Shown piece after piece: positions 50,986 through 64,000 of a stretch of 64,000 nt of DNA; position 1 is the first letter of the stretch, and the number at the start of each line of letters is the position of its first letter. The notes beneath the pieces were generated by a model that was not told the DNA's origin, did no database searches, and saw nothing but the letters and a program-made list of their open reading frames with translations. Source of the stretch: an uncultured Lachnospiraceae bacterium (GTDB lineage Bacteria; Bacillota; Clostridia; Lachnospirales; Lachnospiraceae); contig CAMWHJ010000003.1 in assembly GCA_947174015.1 (NCBI GenBank), positions 18,522 through 82,521 of the forward strand, given 5' to 3'. A program made the translations under genes and the position numbers.

Positions 50986-51812
50986 TCAAGAAACCTTGAA
51001 CATATTGCCGTTGTTGTCATTTTCTATGTCTTTGCTTACATTCCGCACAGCATCCAGCTTGTCCATCTCATCACGCATACGTTTTTCGTCCACATGGTTA
51101 TAAACTTTCATGGTAAGTGCCAGATTTTGGTGTCCCATAATCTCCTGTAAGGTTCTCTGATCCATACCCTTTTCTGCCATACGGGTGCAAGCAGTGTGCC
51201 GGAGTATGTGGGTAGAAATGTTCGGCAATAGTTCCGGTTCGGTATCTGTCTTAATGGCATTTGCAATCTTTCTAGCATTGCACTCATACACAATACGATG
51301 AATCAGCAAATCCAATCTCCCAGCATTTAGTAGCTGTCCATCCTCTCTCAGAAATACAAAACCACTATGACCATCTACGGTATGGTTTTCCAATAAGCCA
51401 GCTTTTTGCATCTGTTTTTTCTGCATTTTCAATGCCTGCAATACTCGCATACTTAACGGAACCTTTCGGATGCTTTTGATGGTCTTTGGATCTGTTACCT
51501 GAAAACGCCTCTCATCATTTTCATCCAACTCATAGATAAGCTGATGGTCAATCTTAATGAAGCGCTTATGAAAATCCACATCTGACCAAGTCAAACCAAT
51601 ACTCTCTCCGCAGCGGCACCCCGTCTCAAAAAAGAATACGAACAGATTATAATACCAATTTAATTCCTGACTGTGTTCTACAAGTATCTCGCCGCTTCTT
51701 CTACGGATAGGGTGTATTTTTGCCAGAGGGGAATTTCTTCTGGAGCAGTTTTTCTTCCACTGCTTGTATCTGCTTTGTTTGTTAATGGAATTATTTTGTC
51801 TTCTTTGCTCAT
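50986..51812 (-). pseudogene. Deletion-fused Tn916-type excisionase N-terminus and tyrosine integrase C-terminus
   Basis: RBS GAGGAGAG then MSKEDKIIPLTNKADTSSGRKTAPEEIPLWQKYTLSVEEAARYL-stop (51678..51812, Xis-like N-terminus). Then in a shifted frame VEHSQELNWYYNLFVFFFETGCRCGESIGLTWSDVDF...HILRHTACTRMAEKGMDQRTLQEIMGHQNLALTMKVYNHV (integrase catalytic core, to 50986). Confidence 0.8.
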
Positions 51813-52045: not shown

Positions 52046-52852
52046 TCAAACTGGTTGCAAAACCTTAACTGCTTTCACTTCCTCTACCGTCAAGCCTGAA
52101 CATTGTGCAATCTCTTCCAATGTTAATTTACCATTGTTTAATAGATTTTTTGCAATCTCTATTCGCTCTTCTCTCATTTCTTTTGCTACAATATCTTCTA
52201 CAATCTTACACATAAATCTTTGTCCCTCCTTGTCTGTCTTGAAATATCTGGCACGGTCTGCCAATTCTTTATAATTCATATCTTCCGGATTCGTACAACT
52301 GAAGTCATGCATCAGTTTTCCTAGTGGTGTGTTATCTTTAATTTGTCCATTCACATATATAATATGTGCATCATCTCCAAAAAGCTCCCCTGTTTCTTCA
52401 ATTCTTCTATCTATATGGTATATCGGCAAATTCCCTTTCAAAACATCACTTTCCGTAATAAAAATCACATAAATTTCCGGCAAATACTCTGTATCATCTC
52501 CTGGAAGAATGGCGTTAGCATCCATAATACTGCTATTATATCTTGCCCTCTTTGGTTTTGCCCCAGAAGATGCACGCTGTGTTTCCACATCATACTGTTT
52601 AGCTGCACGGTCAACTGCTGTCACATCCATTCGTATAGAACGCCCTTGTAAATTCTTTATACCTATCTGTGTGCGTGCTTTTTCTACCACCAGTTCATTA
52701 TCATTCATAATAATACGCAAAACCAGTTCAATGCCTTCCTTATAATCCTCAAAACACTTAGTCATGAAGTCATCATCAAAATAGCACATTTCTTGAATCC
52801 GATCTAAAATATATTGTCTTTTCTGTTCGCTGCTTTGTTTTTTATCTGCCAA
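52046..52852 (-). CDS. Rpn / PD-(D/E)XK nuclease family transposase-like protein
   Basis: DDDFMTKCFEDYKEGIELVLRIIMNDNELVVEKARTQIGIKNLQGRSIRMDVTAVD (D...DV core), C-terminal AKNLLNNGKLTLEEIAQCSGLTVEEVKAV. Confidence 0.85.
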   Translation of the reverse strand: MADKKQSSEQKRQYILDRIQEMCYFDDDFMTKCFEDYKEGIELVLRIIMNDNELVVEKARTQIGIKNLQGRSIRMDVTAVDRAAKQYDVETQRASSGAKPKRARYNSSIMDANAILPGDDTEYLPEIYVIFITESDVLKGNLPIYHIDRRIEETGELFGDDAHIIYVNGQIKDNTPLGKLMHDFSCTNPEDMNYKELADRARYFKTDKEGQRFMCKIVEDIVAKEMREERIEIAKNLLNNGKLTLEEIAQCSGLTVEEVKAVKVLQPV

Positions 52853-52945: not shown

Positions 52946-54085
52946 TCAAACACTTGTCACATAATCCAAAACCCCTATTGTATGTTCTCCGATATTTAGC
53001 ACGCCTTTTTTCCATTTATCATTTTCTGCTGGTAATTTATCCAAAACAAATGCAATGCTGTATTTTGCCCTTGTTGCTGCTACATAATATTTTTGTGGAC
53101 TTTTTAACACTTTTCCCTTAAGTAAAAAATCTTTAAAAGGTCCATTCGGAAATATTATTACTCGCTCAAATGTCATTCCTTTGCATTCACCAAAATTATA
53201 AGACAAATATATTCCTGTATCTGTCTTCTTATCATATCTCAATACAGTTGGTAAAAAATAATTATAATATTCTGACAAATCATCTTTTGCAATTAAAATC
53301 ACACCATCATGTTCTGTTAGATCTAACATTGAAGTAGACATATTATTTTCATTAGAATAAACTTCATTTGCAAAACTACATATTTTACCATTAAACCTTC
53401 TACTTACGAGGTTCTTCTTTATTTCAGCAATACCCTCACTAACCATCTTTTCAAAAAACATCCATATATTCGTTCCTGTCATTTTTTTATTTTTTGTAGA
53501 ATTATTTGTTTTAAAAGTTGCTTGCTTATTATCACCAACACAAGTTACCGAAACATCCGATTTCATTAAAATTTCAATAATATTCAAATCATAGCCCGCC
53601 ATATCTTGCACCTCATCAATAAAGATATGACTATATATTTCTTGAAGTCGATTTATGACTCTAGAATTGCTAATACTGTCTAAATATACTATTAACTCAC
53701 TTGCAAAATTCGAACGAATATCTCCATGTGAATTTATATATCTTCCTTTGGTCCCTTTCTTTCCATAATTAATTTTTCCATACATCTCACTAAAATCCAA
53801 AGATTTAATCTCGTTGATATCAAATAGAAAAGATTGATACGGCTTTATCAATTCTCCTAATAAAAAAGTATACCAACTCATAACATCAATTTTATTACTT
53901 AAAACACCCATATTTTGTTTCTTAATCTCAGTTTTAATCGCATCAATGCCCCTGTTTGTATAACTGAGTATGAGAACTCGCTTTATTTTCGTTTCCTTCT
54001 CTGTAACCTTCAAGGCACTTTCACATAAACTGTATGTCTTTCCTGCTCCTGCTGCTTCAATTTTAATTATATTGTTTGATTGCAT
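52946..54085 (-). CDS. UvrD/Rep-like superfamily 1 helicase, GajB-like
   Basis: IEAAGAGKTYSLCESAL (Walker A), HIFIDEVQDMAGYD (Walker B), VTCVGDNKQATF, GECKGMTFERVIIF, YYVAATRAKYSIAFV. Overlaps the OLD gene by 23 bp. Confidence 0.85.
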   Translation of the reverse strand: MQSNNIIKIEAAGAGKTYSLCESALKVTEKETKIKRVLILSYTNRGIDAIKTEIKKQNMGVLSNKIDVMSWYTFLLGELIKPYQSFLFDINEIKSLDFSEMYGKINYGKKGTKGRYINSHGDIRSNFASELIVYLDSISNSRVINRLQEIYSHIFIDEVQDMAGYDLNIIEILMKSDVSVTCVGDNKQATFKTNNSTKNKKMTGTNIWMFFEKMVSEGIAEIKKNLVSRRFNGKICSFANEVYSNENNMSTSMLDLTEHDGVILIAKDDLSEYYNYFLPTVLRYDKKTDTGIYLSYNFGECKGMTFERVIIFPNGPFKDFLLKGKVLKSPQKYYVAATRAKYSIAFVLDKLPAENDKWKKGVLNIGEHTIGVLDYVTSV

Positions 54086-55685
54086 TTTTAATATACTCCG
54101 GATAATTTATTTTTTCTGTACTATCAAAAACTCGTAATGCCCATTCAGCCTTATTATTTTTCATAAAATCCAAAACTGCCTGTTTCCCTTTAGATTTCAT
54201 GGAACCATTTTTAGATATTGCCTTCTTAAAAGTTTCTGTTGGCTCTCCATTTTCACAATTCACTGATAAAACACTTGGCTCAATTGTATTTAATGTCTCA
54301 TCTTCCTCATAGATAAACAGCAGATTGTCTTTGGTAAGATAATCGTTATATTTCTTTTTTATATGTTCATCTATATTTCCATCATTATCTGTCACAATAA
54401 CCACCTTTTTATTTAACATCGAAACAATATCACAATATCTTTTGAAAGCAAGCGAATCAACGACTATAATATCAATACCATCACTAATAGGAAGTTTTCC
54501 ATATTCATCCAAATATGCTCTTTGCATTATAAGCTCATCTGTCGGTCCTTCAACTAATATAACTTTTTCAGCTAATATAACTCTCAAAGTGTCATAACCA
54601 GGTAATTTCATGAAATACTTTTTTGTTTCTTCATTCAAATTTGACATTGGAAAAATCTCACCGCTGTTCATCAAATAAATTTTCCCTAAGTCTAATTTAT
54701 TCGCAACATAACTGCTATGTGTAGAAATAAAAACTTGTTTTCCTTCACTCTTAATCACATTTTTGATCAACTTAACCATATTAGTGAAAGATAAATTATT
54801 TTCTGGTTCTTCCATTAAAACAACATTTACCTGTTCTTTAGAATTTTTGATTGCCAATTCAATCTTAATAAAATTCTGCGTTCCAAATCCAACATTTTCA
54901 AACGGTATATCCTCCACCACAACCGACATCTGACGTTTCCATTCATCTACTCCATCTTCACGTAAATCAATCGTAATTCCCTTGTTATTCATTTGCACAT
55001 TTTCACGTACTGATTCATTTAATTGCTTAACAGCTCCATTTTCACGAAAAGAATGCCTACTTTTTCTATATGCAGTACTTAAATCCGTCTGCTCTTGTGA
55101 AGTCAAATAAGTAGTAATATTATCAGTCACAAAATGATCCATAACATATGAATAATCTTTTCTCGTTGTATCAATAACGCTTGCTTTTACTGGTGCAAAT
55201 CTAAAAGCTACCATGTCACCTTTGAAATATCGAAATGAAACAGAATACAGTTCAACTGGAATATCGTATACTTCCCCTGCTTTAAGCATTTGCTTATACG
55301 CATCCGCATATTCTTGATTAAGCGATAATTCCATTCTAATACCTGAACAATCTTCTCTTAATTCATTGTTTGTTCCTGCATACTTCTTATCGTCTAAATC
55401 CAGATATGCCTCTATGATAATTCGGGGTGGCTCCATAGGTTTACTTACAGTTTTTAATGATTCAATATACTGTTCTCTTTCTTTACAATTAAATATATTA
55501 GCTTTAATCTGTCTTTCAAATGCATAGCCATTTACTTTTCCTGTTGTCACAATAGATAAAGCCTCTAAAATTGTGCTTTTCCCAGAATCATTTTCCCCAA
55601 CAAAAATATTAATATCTTCATTCAAATTTATAACTGTATTTTCAATTGATTTATAATTTCTTATTAGCAATTTCCTTATTGTCAT
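54063..55685 (-). CDS. OLD-family ATPase-TOPRIM endonuclease, GajA-like
   Basis: LLIRNYKSIENTVINLNEDINIFVGENDSGKSTILEAL; VVLMEEPENNLS; VFISTHSSYVANKL; TOPRIM VILVEGPTDELIMQRAYLDEYG and IVTDNDGNID. Confidence 0.88.
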   Translation of the reverse strand: MTIRKLLIRNYKSIENTVINLNEDINIFVGENDSGKSTILEALSIVTTGKVNGYAFERQIKANIFNCKEREQYIESLKTVSKPMEPPRIIIEAYLDLDDKKYAGTNNELREDCSGIRMELSLNQEYADAYKQMLKAGEVYDIPVELYSVSFRYFKGDMVAFRFAPVKASVIDTTRKDYSYVMDHFVTDNITTYLTSQEQTDLSTAYRKSRHSFRENGAVKQLNESVRENVQMNNKGITIDLREDGVDEWKRQMSVVVEDIPFENVGFGTQNFIKIELAIKNSKEQVNVVLMEEPENNLSFTNMVKLIKNVIKSEGKQVFISTHSSYVANKLDLGKIYLMNSGEIFPMSNLNEETKKYFMKLPGYDTLRVILAEKVILVEGPTDELIMQRAYLDEYGKLPISDGIDIIVVDSLAFKRYCDIVSMLNKKVVIVTDNDGNIDEHIKKKYNDYLTKDNLLFIYEEDETLNTIEPSVLSVNCENGEPTETFKKAISKNGSMKSKGKQAVLDFMKNNKAEWALRVFDSTEKINYPEYIKNAIKQYN

Positions 55686-58838: not shown

Positions 58839-59594
58839 TTATAGATTCTTAAGTCTTTTTATAAGTTGTCCCGCAAATAGTAATGCAATATGATCACATG
58901 TATACTTCTTTGAATCAATAGCCTGTATGTTTGCAACAGATGGATATTTTTCTTGTAATTGTTCAAGAGATATATTGTGTAAAATAGGAAGAATTAATTT
59001 CTGCCCATTTCTATTTTGCCTATTTAAAAACTCTACCAGTTCTCTCTCTGTCCACTCTCTATCAAAAAAATTCTCTGATATAACAATAATTGCAAATTCA
59101 GCTCTTTTTGTTCCATTTAAAATTTTTTCCTTCCAATTATCACCCCATTCAAGAGATTCCTTATCATAAAAAATATGTATTCCAAGTTTACTCAGTGATT
59201 GATAAAGTTTCTCCACCAACTCTTCCTTATCCTTACTTGCATGAGAAATAAAAAGATCATATTCTGGCAATTGCTTTGCCTGATATGCTGGAACACTTAC
59301 TTCTTTAATTCCATTCATTTTATCTAAAAACTTTCTATCATTTTGTATGCTAATCAAACATGCTACAATTTCATCATATGCATTTAATCCGCGTTGGAAC
59401 AATAATACTCTAATTCTTTCTCCTAAAGCATGCTTTTTAAGATAATTATTGTAAAATATTTCCACATCATTCATCCAAATCTCACTAGGAAGATTATACT
59501 CTGCCAAGCTCATACCTGATGGTGCAACATTGACTGGCGATTTTACATTTTTAGTTCTTTCTAAAAGTATCTTCAATTCTTCCTCAAAATTCAT
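58839..59594 (-). CDS. TIR-domain protein embedded in the type I R-M operon
   Basis: YDLFISHASKDKEELVEKLYQSLSKLGIHIFYDKESLEWGDNWKEKILNGTKRAEFAIIVISENFFDREWTERELVEFLNRQ is a TIR fold with the Glu-containing WTxxEL motif; about 110-aa N-terminal helical region. Confidence 0.88.
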   Translation of the reverse strand: MNFEEELKILLERTKNVKSPVNVAPSGMSLAEYNLPSEIWMNDVEIFYNNYLKKHALGERIRVLLFQRGLNAYDEIVACLISIQNDRKFLDKMNGIKEVSVPAYQAKQLPEYDLFISHASKDKEELVEKLYQSLSKLGIHIFYDKESLEWGDNWKEKILNGTKRAEFAIIVISENFFDREWTERELVEFLNRQNRNGQKLILPILHNISLEQLQEKYPSVANIQAIDSKKYTCDHIALLFAGQLIKRLKNL

Positions 59595-60914
59595 TTACTT
59601 TACCTCCTTTTTTCCTGTAACATATTCAAAAATAAAATTTTTTTTGTACTTTTCTATTATTGTTAATTGCTCTTTCTTTGAATCAATAAGTACATCTATT
59701 TCTCTGATTTTCTCATCAAGGTAATCAGAAATCAAAACCTGTTCTTTATATGATGGCTCAAAAACCATTAATCGAGAAAATCCAGAAAAGTTCAATCCCT
59801 GTCTCACTCCATTTCCCATATTATAAAATACTTTCATTATATCATAAGAATGTAACAAGTAGTGAAAATAACGTGTATCTATGTGACGAATTGGCATTAA
59901 ATCAATATATGCAGATGTTATTATTCCATGCTCTTTTACTAAGCCTGTACGTAAACTTCTTTTATCATTTTGTAAATCAGTAGGTCTGATAATAATATCG
60001 CCATCTTCCACAATATTGTATGTATTGAAGTTTTCTGGCAAAAGCCCCCCATTTGCATTTATATCTTTTCTTATTACCCGTCCATAGCTCAATGACAAAA
60101 GATTATTTTCTTTTCCTCGTGTATTCCTATTTTTACGTTCTACAAAATAAAAATAAAGAGGGTGTAGTTTCCAATGAGCAGGTATTTGTCCAATCCACTC
60201 AATCCCGCTATCTTTCATTTTGACATTAGTATTTAATCCCTTTGTTACCACTTCAGTAATAACAGATTGTTTGTATTGTTCAAGGATATCAATTTGAGAC
60301 TTTATATTCAAATATATGGCATCTATCTGAACACATTTCTTTTCAAGAAACTGAGCTAAACCCAATTGCTTAACTGTTGTTGGAACAGGTATGTATATAT
60401 TTTTCAATGTTTCACTATATATAACTTCTATCGTTGTAGCATTACTTTTATACAAAATCTGCTTTTCAACAAAATCAGAATAATTAAAAAGCAATTGTAG
60501 CAAAGAATAGCATATCTTTTTTTCATCAATCCTAAACTTAATGATACATGGATGAATAATTCCCTCCTTATGCTTTAGTGGAACTCTGCTAATTTTTCCA
60601 ATAGTACCTCTTGTTGTAATTAATATATCATCCGTCTGCACTTGAAACCCACGCATCAATTGATATTTATCTTCTGAAATATTGGTATTATTTGTTTTGT
60701 AATTATTGTCTATTACACTTCTTTGATTATATACCCAATAGCCATCCTCAACAAAATCATTTCCCGTCAATTGACTTCCAAATGGTCCCACTTTAATATT
60801 ATCTTCCTCTGAAGACAACAAATATTTTAGTGGAACCAATTTAATATTTTTTCCAATTTCCCCAATCCATTCAATCCCACTATCTTTCATCTCTCGCACA
60901 TCAAACACCCCCAA
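59595..60914 (-). CDS. hsdS: Type I restriction specificity subunit S
   Basis: Two half-repeats each opening with MKDSGIEWIG; KYLLSSEEDNIKVGPFGSQLTGNDF, GDIIIRPTDLQNDKRSLRTGLV; conserved helices ILEQYKQSVITEVVTKGL. Confidence 0.94.
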   Translation of the reverse strand: MGVFDVREMKDSGIEWIGEIGKNIKLVPLKYLLSSEEDNIKVGPFGSQLTGNDFVEDGYWVYNQRSVIDNNYKTNNTNISEDKYQLMRGFQVQTDDILITTRGTIGKISRVPLKHKEGIIHPCIIKFRIDEKKICYSLLQLLFNYSDFVEKQILYKSNATTIEVIYSETLKNIYIPVPTTVKQLGLAQFLEKKCVQIDAIYLNIKSQIDILEQYKQSVITEVVTKGLNTNVKMKDSGIEWIGQIPAHWKLHPLYFYFVERKNRNTRGKENNLLSLSYGRVIRKDINANGGLLPENFNTYNIVEDGDIIIRPTDLQNDKRSLRTGLVKEHGIITSAYIDLMPIRHIDTRYFHYLLHSYDIMKVFYNMGNGVRQGLNFSGFSRLMVFEPSYKEQVLISDYLDEKIREIDVLIDSKKEQLTIIEKYKKNFIFEYVTGKKEVK

Positions 60915-63770: not shown

Positions 63771-64000
63771 TTAGTCTATTCTGTACCAGGGTGCCGCCTG
63801 TATTCCTTTTGGGTGACCAAATGCCGGATATACATCATTCCCTCTTATTTCATACCAAGGTGCTGCCTGTATCCCCTTTGGGTGACCAAATGCTGGATAT
63901 ATACTATTTCCTCTTACTTCGTACCAAGGTGCTGCCTGTATCCCCTTTGGGTGACCAAATGCCGGATATACATCATTCCCTCTTATTTCATACCAAGGTG
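63771..64000 (-). CDS. Partial CDS (C-terminus) made of 23-aa tandem repeats; continues beyond the window
   Basis: Open minus frame ending ...EIRGNDVYPAFGHPKGIQAAPWYRID-stop (TAA at 63771-63773). Not in the supplied ORF track because it lacks a start inside the window. Confidence 0.8.
   Translation of the reverse strand, partial: PWYEIRGNDVYPAFGHPKGIQAAPWYEVRGNSIYPAFGHPKGIQAAPWYEIRGNDVYPAFGHPKGIQAAPWYRID
63784..64000 (-). repeat. 69-bp in-frame tandem repeat, three full units plus a partial one
   Basis: Unit boundaries at tacc 63784, 63853, 63922, 63991, exactly 69 bp apart; consensus WYE(I/V)RGN(D/S)(V/I)YPAFGHPKGIQAAP. Confidence 0.92.

Follow-up and report, generated by a model that had tools for sequence, protein, structure and literature searches.

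A TIR-domain gene between hsdS and hsdR of a type I restriction–modification operon as a candidate portable abortive-infection effector

The stretch of Lachnospiraceae DNA analysed here (the window, 64,000 nucleotides in full) carries on its minus strand a type I restriction–modification (R-M) operon in which a TIR-domain gene occupies the slot between hsdS and hsdR (Table 1). HsdM, HsdS and HsdR are all full-length, are recognised by Pfam and retain the motifs of their families, and the type I operon is apparently intact. The stop codon of hsdS (TAA, 59595–59597) abuts the start codon of the TIR gene, giving TAAATG, and a gap of 13 bp separates the TIR stop codon from the start of hsdR; the open reading frame coordinates and the sequence confirm this placement, which had been described in an earlier note on the same DNA. 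The abutting start and a Shine-Dalgarno sequence inside the last hsdS codons also support the view taken there that the gene is built into the operon. By its sequence context, the TIR gene is read from the hsd operon, with its Shine-Dalgarno sequence supplied by the end of hsdS.

Table 1. Genes and sequence elements of the operon, with positions counted from the first letter of the window
Feature	Position	Strand	Evidence
hsdM, type I DNA methyltransferase, 697 aa	60901..62994	-	PF02384 1.1e-58, PF12161 1.9e-22; PADLOC MTase_I 4.5e-239; motifs DQACGTG and NPPF
hsdS, specificity subunit, 439 aa, C-terminus ...FEYVTGKKEVK*	59595..60914	-	PF01420 6e-10; PADLOC Specificity_I 7.8e-86
Shine-Dalgarno sequence AAGGAGG of the TIR gene, inside the last hsdS codons (conserved HsdS C-terminal GKKEV)	59603..59609	-	sequence
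TIR effector gene (candidate), 251 aa, ATG start, in the hsdS–hsdR slot	58839..59594	-	ORF, domain matches and model
N2, N-terminal helical domain, residues 1–95	59310..59594	-	model pLDDT about 87–95; 15 invariant positions in 15 homologues
TIR domain, residues 112–250	58845..59261	-	phmmer AbTir 1.9e-25; Foldseek BtpA/TcpB/AbTir/PdTIR 1e-8 to 1e-7; residue mapping
hsdR, restriction/translocase subunit, 1020 aa	55763..58825	-	PF04313, PF18766, PF04851, PF22679; FELK and DEAH motifs
gajA-like gene (AAA and OLD TOPRIM), 78 bp after hsdR	54063..55685	-	PADLOC GajA 3.6e-168; PF13175, PF20469
gajB-like gene (UvrD-type helicase), overlaps gajA	52946..54085	-	PADLOC GajB 3.9e-95

Downstream of hsdR, a gajA gene (AAA and TOPRIM) is followed by a UvrD-like gajB gene, the arrangement of a Gabija system; this pair is absent from the earlier note. 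The order hsdM–hsdS–TIR–hsdR–gajA–gajB probably represents one defence operon, in which 52946–55685 (-) holds a complete gajAB. Scans for internal promoters and terminators gave a signal no higher than that of shuffled sequence. Beside the island lie an ORF for the C-terminal part of a tyrosine integrase (50986–51594, -; PF00589 1.7e-22) and an Rpn/PD-(D/E)XK-like ORF (52046–52852, -), both possibly mobile-element remnants. At the end of the window (63771–63998), the peptide PWYEIRGNDVYPAFGHPKGIQAA is repeated in frame.

The C-terminal part of the slot protein is a TIR domain by Pfam (PF13676 TIR_2, 1.4e-21, residues 115–230). AbTir, BtpA/TcpB, BtTir and PdTIR are its nearest solved relatives, and the predicted model agrees with the sequence, with Foldseek matches to BtpA/TcpB, AbTir and PdTIR. 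By residue mapping, S117, D144, W181, E185 and R192, which include the glutamate of the WxxxE motif, correspond to AbTir S140, D167, W204, E208 and R215, and all five are invariant across 15 homologues. AbTir R151 is not conserved, the aligned residue in the window protein being E128. In AbTir, mutation of S140, D167, W204, E208 or R215 abolishes or reduces NADase activity, and W204 is also needed for production of 2′cADPR (PMC11374754). Because five NADase residues of AbTir are conserved, the window protein is likely to be an NAD+-consuming abortive effector, in agreement with the earlier note, which had pointed to bacterial TIRs that cleave NAD+ or make signalling nucleotides in abortive defence. 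Since the W204 equivalent is kept, a cyclic product (2′cADPR) is possible. The TIR half of the model is of moderate confidence (pLDDT about 60–85), and the active-site geometry was judged from the sequence.

The N-terminal part forms a separate helical domain, termed N2, with predicted helices at residues 3–13, 30–52, 58–67, 72–84 and 87–93 and a pLDDT of about 87–95 over residues 1–90. The protein had previously been described as a helical region of about 110 aa followed by a C-terminal TIR domain; the helices and the TIR match bear out this two-part layout, and the helical part proper is shorter, about 95 aa, with a low-confidence linker of ~15 aa behind it. N2 has no Pfam match, and no solved relative was found by sequence (best E-value in the PDB, 0.36). 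A second copy of the TIR gene in the same genome (L044) encodes a protein that is 72% identical over the shared part and carries an additional N-terminal, winged-helix-like domain, N1, modelled with helices at residues 9–20, 27–33 and 37–52 and strands at residues 56–61 and 64–70. The Foldseek lists for the window-type and long-form models were headed by TIR matches only, with no named relatives for N2 or for the winged-helix N1. Both forms, short (N2-TIR) and long (N1-N2-TIR), are found in the hsd slot. In L034, L035, L036 and L041 a closely similar TIR domain (64–81% identical) is joined to different N-terminal domains, and no Hsd gene adjoins it, a pattern that suggests exchangeable sensor domains on one effector.

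The earlier note had proposed a survey of genomes for the hsdMS–TIR–hsdR order, and the arrangement recurs. A scan of the genome collection yielded 22 TIR relatives, to which whole-genome searches added the second copy in the own genome and G341; relatives were annotated by ORF calling and phmmer comparison with the window Hsd proteins, on contigs of which some are short or frameshifted (HsdR and HsdM of L022, HsdM of L025). Full-length N2-TIR proteins number 15; flanks could be read for 14 of them, and in 11 cases the gene sits in the hsdS–hsdR slot (the window, L022, L025, L028, L044, L045, L024, L029, L030, L032 and L033); the fifteenth protein, in L023, lies at a contig edge. The second copy in the own genome (G000:C10, 7739–18701) belongs to a further hsdM–hsdS–TIR–hsdR operon, with the long form of TIR and with Hachiman behind it. 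Outside the slot, the N2-TIR of L031 follows a type III Mod–Res pair, and those of L026 and L027 are free-standing, in that the Hsd queries recognised no R-M gene beside them; reading of the proteins places L027 in a group of mobilisation genes and puts a cytosine-methylase-like ORF about 1.6 kb upstream of it. Of about 22 relatives in which a similar TIR follows another N-terminus, L039 alone occupies the slot, with hsdS on its upstream side and, by tblastn, hsdR downstream at 1811. The difference between the two groups gives p of about 6e-6 by Fisher's exact test, a value that serves as a guide only, because the relatives are not independent, and for which several of the N2-less loci had flanks of only 1.5 kb. 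An alignment-based search of 391 class-level genomes returned only two further TIR loci, both without N2. Viral contigs scanned with the family alignment held no relative, and tblastn against phages and plasmids gave only TIR-domain matches of <60% identity, none with full coverage, so that no phage- or plasmid-borne copy was seen. Together, these results establish hsdMS–TIR–hsdR as a real, repeated arrangement; because homologues fill the same slot in 10 further operons, its occurrence in the window is not a matter of chance.

Comparison of the operons shows the hsdS–hsdR slot to be a recurrent cargo site, in which the resident gene is acquired, lost and exchanged. The TIR subfamily is found with three HsdR lineages, namely the window type, that of L028 and L042, and that of L039. 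The HsdR proteins of L028 and L042 are 84% identical to each other and both about 25% identical to that of the window, and L042 retains only a broken TIR remnant; the HsdR of L039 is 54% identical to that of L087 and 39% to that of the window. The TIR of L028 is 65–67% identical, yet its HsdM and HsdR are only 25–30% identical to the Hsd proteins compared. Conversely, L022 with TIR and L080 without it share 88% identity in HsdR, and L025 and L032 share 89% in HsdR, yet their TIR proteins differ in form and reach only 56% identity. L044, with TIR in the slot, groups with L081, in which a 208-aa unrelated gene occupies that position. TIR and HsdR distances are only weakly correlated (Spearman 0.29); the deep branches of the TIR and Hsd trees are poorly resolved, and only close pairs were interpreted. 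Close relatives have either nothing in the slot or an FRG, HEPN, DUF4238 or YhcG gene there, and across the same bacterial family or TIR-bearing operons its other cargo comprises FRG (PDC-S15), HEPN, DUF4238, YhcG/DUF1016 (PDC-S02) and small membrane proteins.

Two operons with stacked slot genes (HEPN or FRG plus TIR) hold pieces of hsdR between them: a truncated hsdR start of 74 codons in L024 (1649–1873) and an hsdR-like start of 15 codons, 11 of them matching, in L030 (3126–3170). These 5′-end fragments look like scars left where genes were inserted one after another at the hsdS/hsdR junction. Since AAGAAGGAGGT encodes the HsdS C-terminus ...YVTGKKEV, the end of hsdS supplies a ribosome-binding site to any gene that follows. 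In most relatives this A/G-rich stretch coding for GKKEV precedes the slot gene, whichever it is (for example in L022, L025, L044, L045 and L080), and the hsdS stop and the slot-gene start, which abut in the window, overlap in L022, L025, L029 and L044. A second variable position lies 3′ of hsdR. It is taken by Gabija in the window and, in relatives, by different complete defence systems: Hachiman (HamAB) in L044 (15220–18701), McrBC in L022 (13853–17214) and L025 (13733–17184), and a SIR2-domain gene in L028 (13927–17376).

On these grounds we lean, with modest confidence, towards the reading that the TIR gene encodes a portable effector of abortive infection and has its docking site at the hsdS–hsdR junction of type I R-M operons. 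The TIR protein would be made along with the R-M enzyme and held inactive. When a phage evades restriction, N2 (plus the winged-helix N1 in the long form) would receive an infection cue, upon which the TIR domains would assemble and consume NAD+, possibly with release of 2′cADPR, and the loss of NAD+ would halt the cell before phage release. The cue is more likely to be read by the TIR protein itself, or to be common to many R-M systems, than to be a specific contact with HsdM, HsdS or HsdR of the window; according to PMC11312562, TIR-only sensors can read phage capsids directly. The strong preference of N2 for the hsd slot would also fit a sensor that contacts Hsd proteins. A PrrC-type guard of this kind, in which the TIR protein binds HsdM, HsdS and HsdR, is silenced by them and is released or activated when an Ocr-, ArdA- or Stp-like anti-restriction protein blocks the enzyme, is a possibility that we take seriously while leaning against it; the R-M-monitoring mechanism put forward in the earlier note is essentially that of PrrC. 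The gene lies exactly where prrC lies in hsdM–hsdS–prrC–hsdR, for which silencing and release were shown (PMC3014915; PMC2610378), N2-bearing TIRs are concentrated in the slot, and translational coupling suggests matched synthesis of TIR and Hsd proteins. Against such a guard, N2-TIR also accompanies the distant Hsd proteins of L028 and a type III system and is found where no R-M neighbour was recognised, the close Hsd relative L080 has no TIR, TIR and HsdR distances are poorly correlated, and the related ACNase RloC of A. baylyi needs no R-M system for silencing or activation (PMC3874168). Because of this spread across unrelated Hsd proteins and the free-standing copies, the portable effector is favoured over a dedicated Hsd-bound guard.

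The kept W204 equivalent and the match of PADLOC ThsB profiles to the TIR domain (1.7e-26) would also suit a Thoeris-like division of labour, in which the product of the TIR protein, a cyclic ADP-ribose isomer, would act on a separate receptor encoded at another place in the genome and the TIR protein itself would not kill. The earlier note had seen no ThsA-like partner, and this extends to the whole own genome (97.8% complete), where, as in the operon, no match to PF18185 (STALD) was found; because the own genome holds no STALD gene, a Thoeris-type signal to a remote receptor is less likely. STALD/ThsA-like genes were likewise missing from six of eight other genomes or records searched, some of which may be incomplete, and no receptor gene is conserved beside TIR. 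We consider this explanation unlikely. It is more improbable still that the TIR gene is a mere passenger, present because the slot is a recombination hot spot that tolerates insertions, and sharing only transcription with restriction. The cargo is indeed highly diverse, empty slots are frequent, hsdR 5′ ends are duplicated in L024 and L030, and a hot-spot view has been proposed for DarTG2 (PMC12255303), but one TIR subfamily has been recruited into at least three HsdR lineages with its catalytic residues intact, a pattern that is difficult to account for unless the combination is under selection.

N2 might be a sensor of restriction failure that serves R-M systems of different kinds, which would make it a generic R-M-guard module wired to NAD+ destruction. 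We regard this generalisation as doubtful. It draws on the fusion of N2 to TIR-type effectors in at least two distinct type I lineages, with the type III Mod–Res pair (one locus, L031) and with an MmeI-like type IIL enzyme (one locus, L108). In L108 (1442–6277, -), a 350-aa protein joins an N2-like domain (2e-11) to a PF10137 (PDC-S35) TIR-like domain and adjoins a DUF5677 gene and an R-M enzyme with MmeI domains. The evidence is anecdotal, because the N2–PF10137 combination was seen once among 397 genomes; a search for N2 in the family of G498 found nothing.

The textbook case of a suicide enzyme coupled to type I restriction has been PrrC. If a TIR NADase family indeed fills the same slot in several restriction systems, the hsdS–hsdR junction would be a general docking site for backup effectors, and TIR immunity would be linked to restriction. 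Related operons that differ in the presence of TIR or in their cargo would then form ready natural pairs for asking whether embedded effectors sense restriction failure or only share its expression.

AbTir, BtpA (TcpB) and PdTIR are the best matches in sequence and fold and have the NADase residues in common with the window protein, which differs in its N-terminal domain (N2) and its R-M operon context. The TIR domain is also what Retron-TIR (RT type XII) and Thoeris ThsB have in common with the window protein (RT-TIR_XII 1.4e-16, NF042941 3.5e-29 and the ThsB match given above), whereas the window locus has neither a reverse transcriptase nor a ThsA partner. The PADLOC candidate PDC-S66 (TIR) matches the TIR half (4.3e-44; residues 90–237, profile positions 126–273 of 282) and leaves its own N-terminal half unmatched, which rules out full-length membership of N2-TIR; PDC-S35 (PF10137, TIR-like) was the other single-gene candidate compared. 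As cited in PMC12988326, PDCs are single-gene candidates catalogued by guilt-by-embedding, and that catalogue may already list TIRs in type I operons. In the full text of open-licence papers we found no description of a TIR gene between hsdS and hsdR.

The layout hsdM–hsdS–X–hsdR is itself already known, and the earlier statement that no characterised system has it was incorrect. In EPEC, DarTG2 sits between hsdS and hsdR, at a junction that has been called a potential recombination hot spot (PMC12255303). A toxic defence module fills the slot in both cases; the RRDM island of EPEC has an ADP-ribosylating toxin–antitoxin pair and an upstream RptR repressor, whereas the window has a single TIR gene and no RptR-like gene was identified there. 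In E. coli, prrABCD has the order hsdM–hsdS–prrC–hsdR (PMC3014915). EcoprrI keeps PrrC silent until T4 Stp releases it, and type Ic R-M is the invariable partner described for PrrC orthologues (PMC2610378); PrrC and PARIS have been reviewed as R-M guardians (PMC12707154). The window protein is not a PrrC, as its 251 aa give only TIR matches and contain no ATPase domain: it is a candidate TIR NADase, whereas PrrC is an ABC-ATPase tRNA-Lys anticodon nuclease. Nor is N2-TIR invariably linked to one kind of type I R-M, since it also occurs away from type I loci (L026/L027, L031) and beside the divergent Hsd proteins of L028. Hsd-dependent silencing belongs to PrrC and is proposed for the window TIR by analogy. 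The two loci agree in having an effector gene placed after hsdS and before hsdR in a complete type I operon, and the window effector is predicted to act behind restriction as a second line that arrests the cell.
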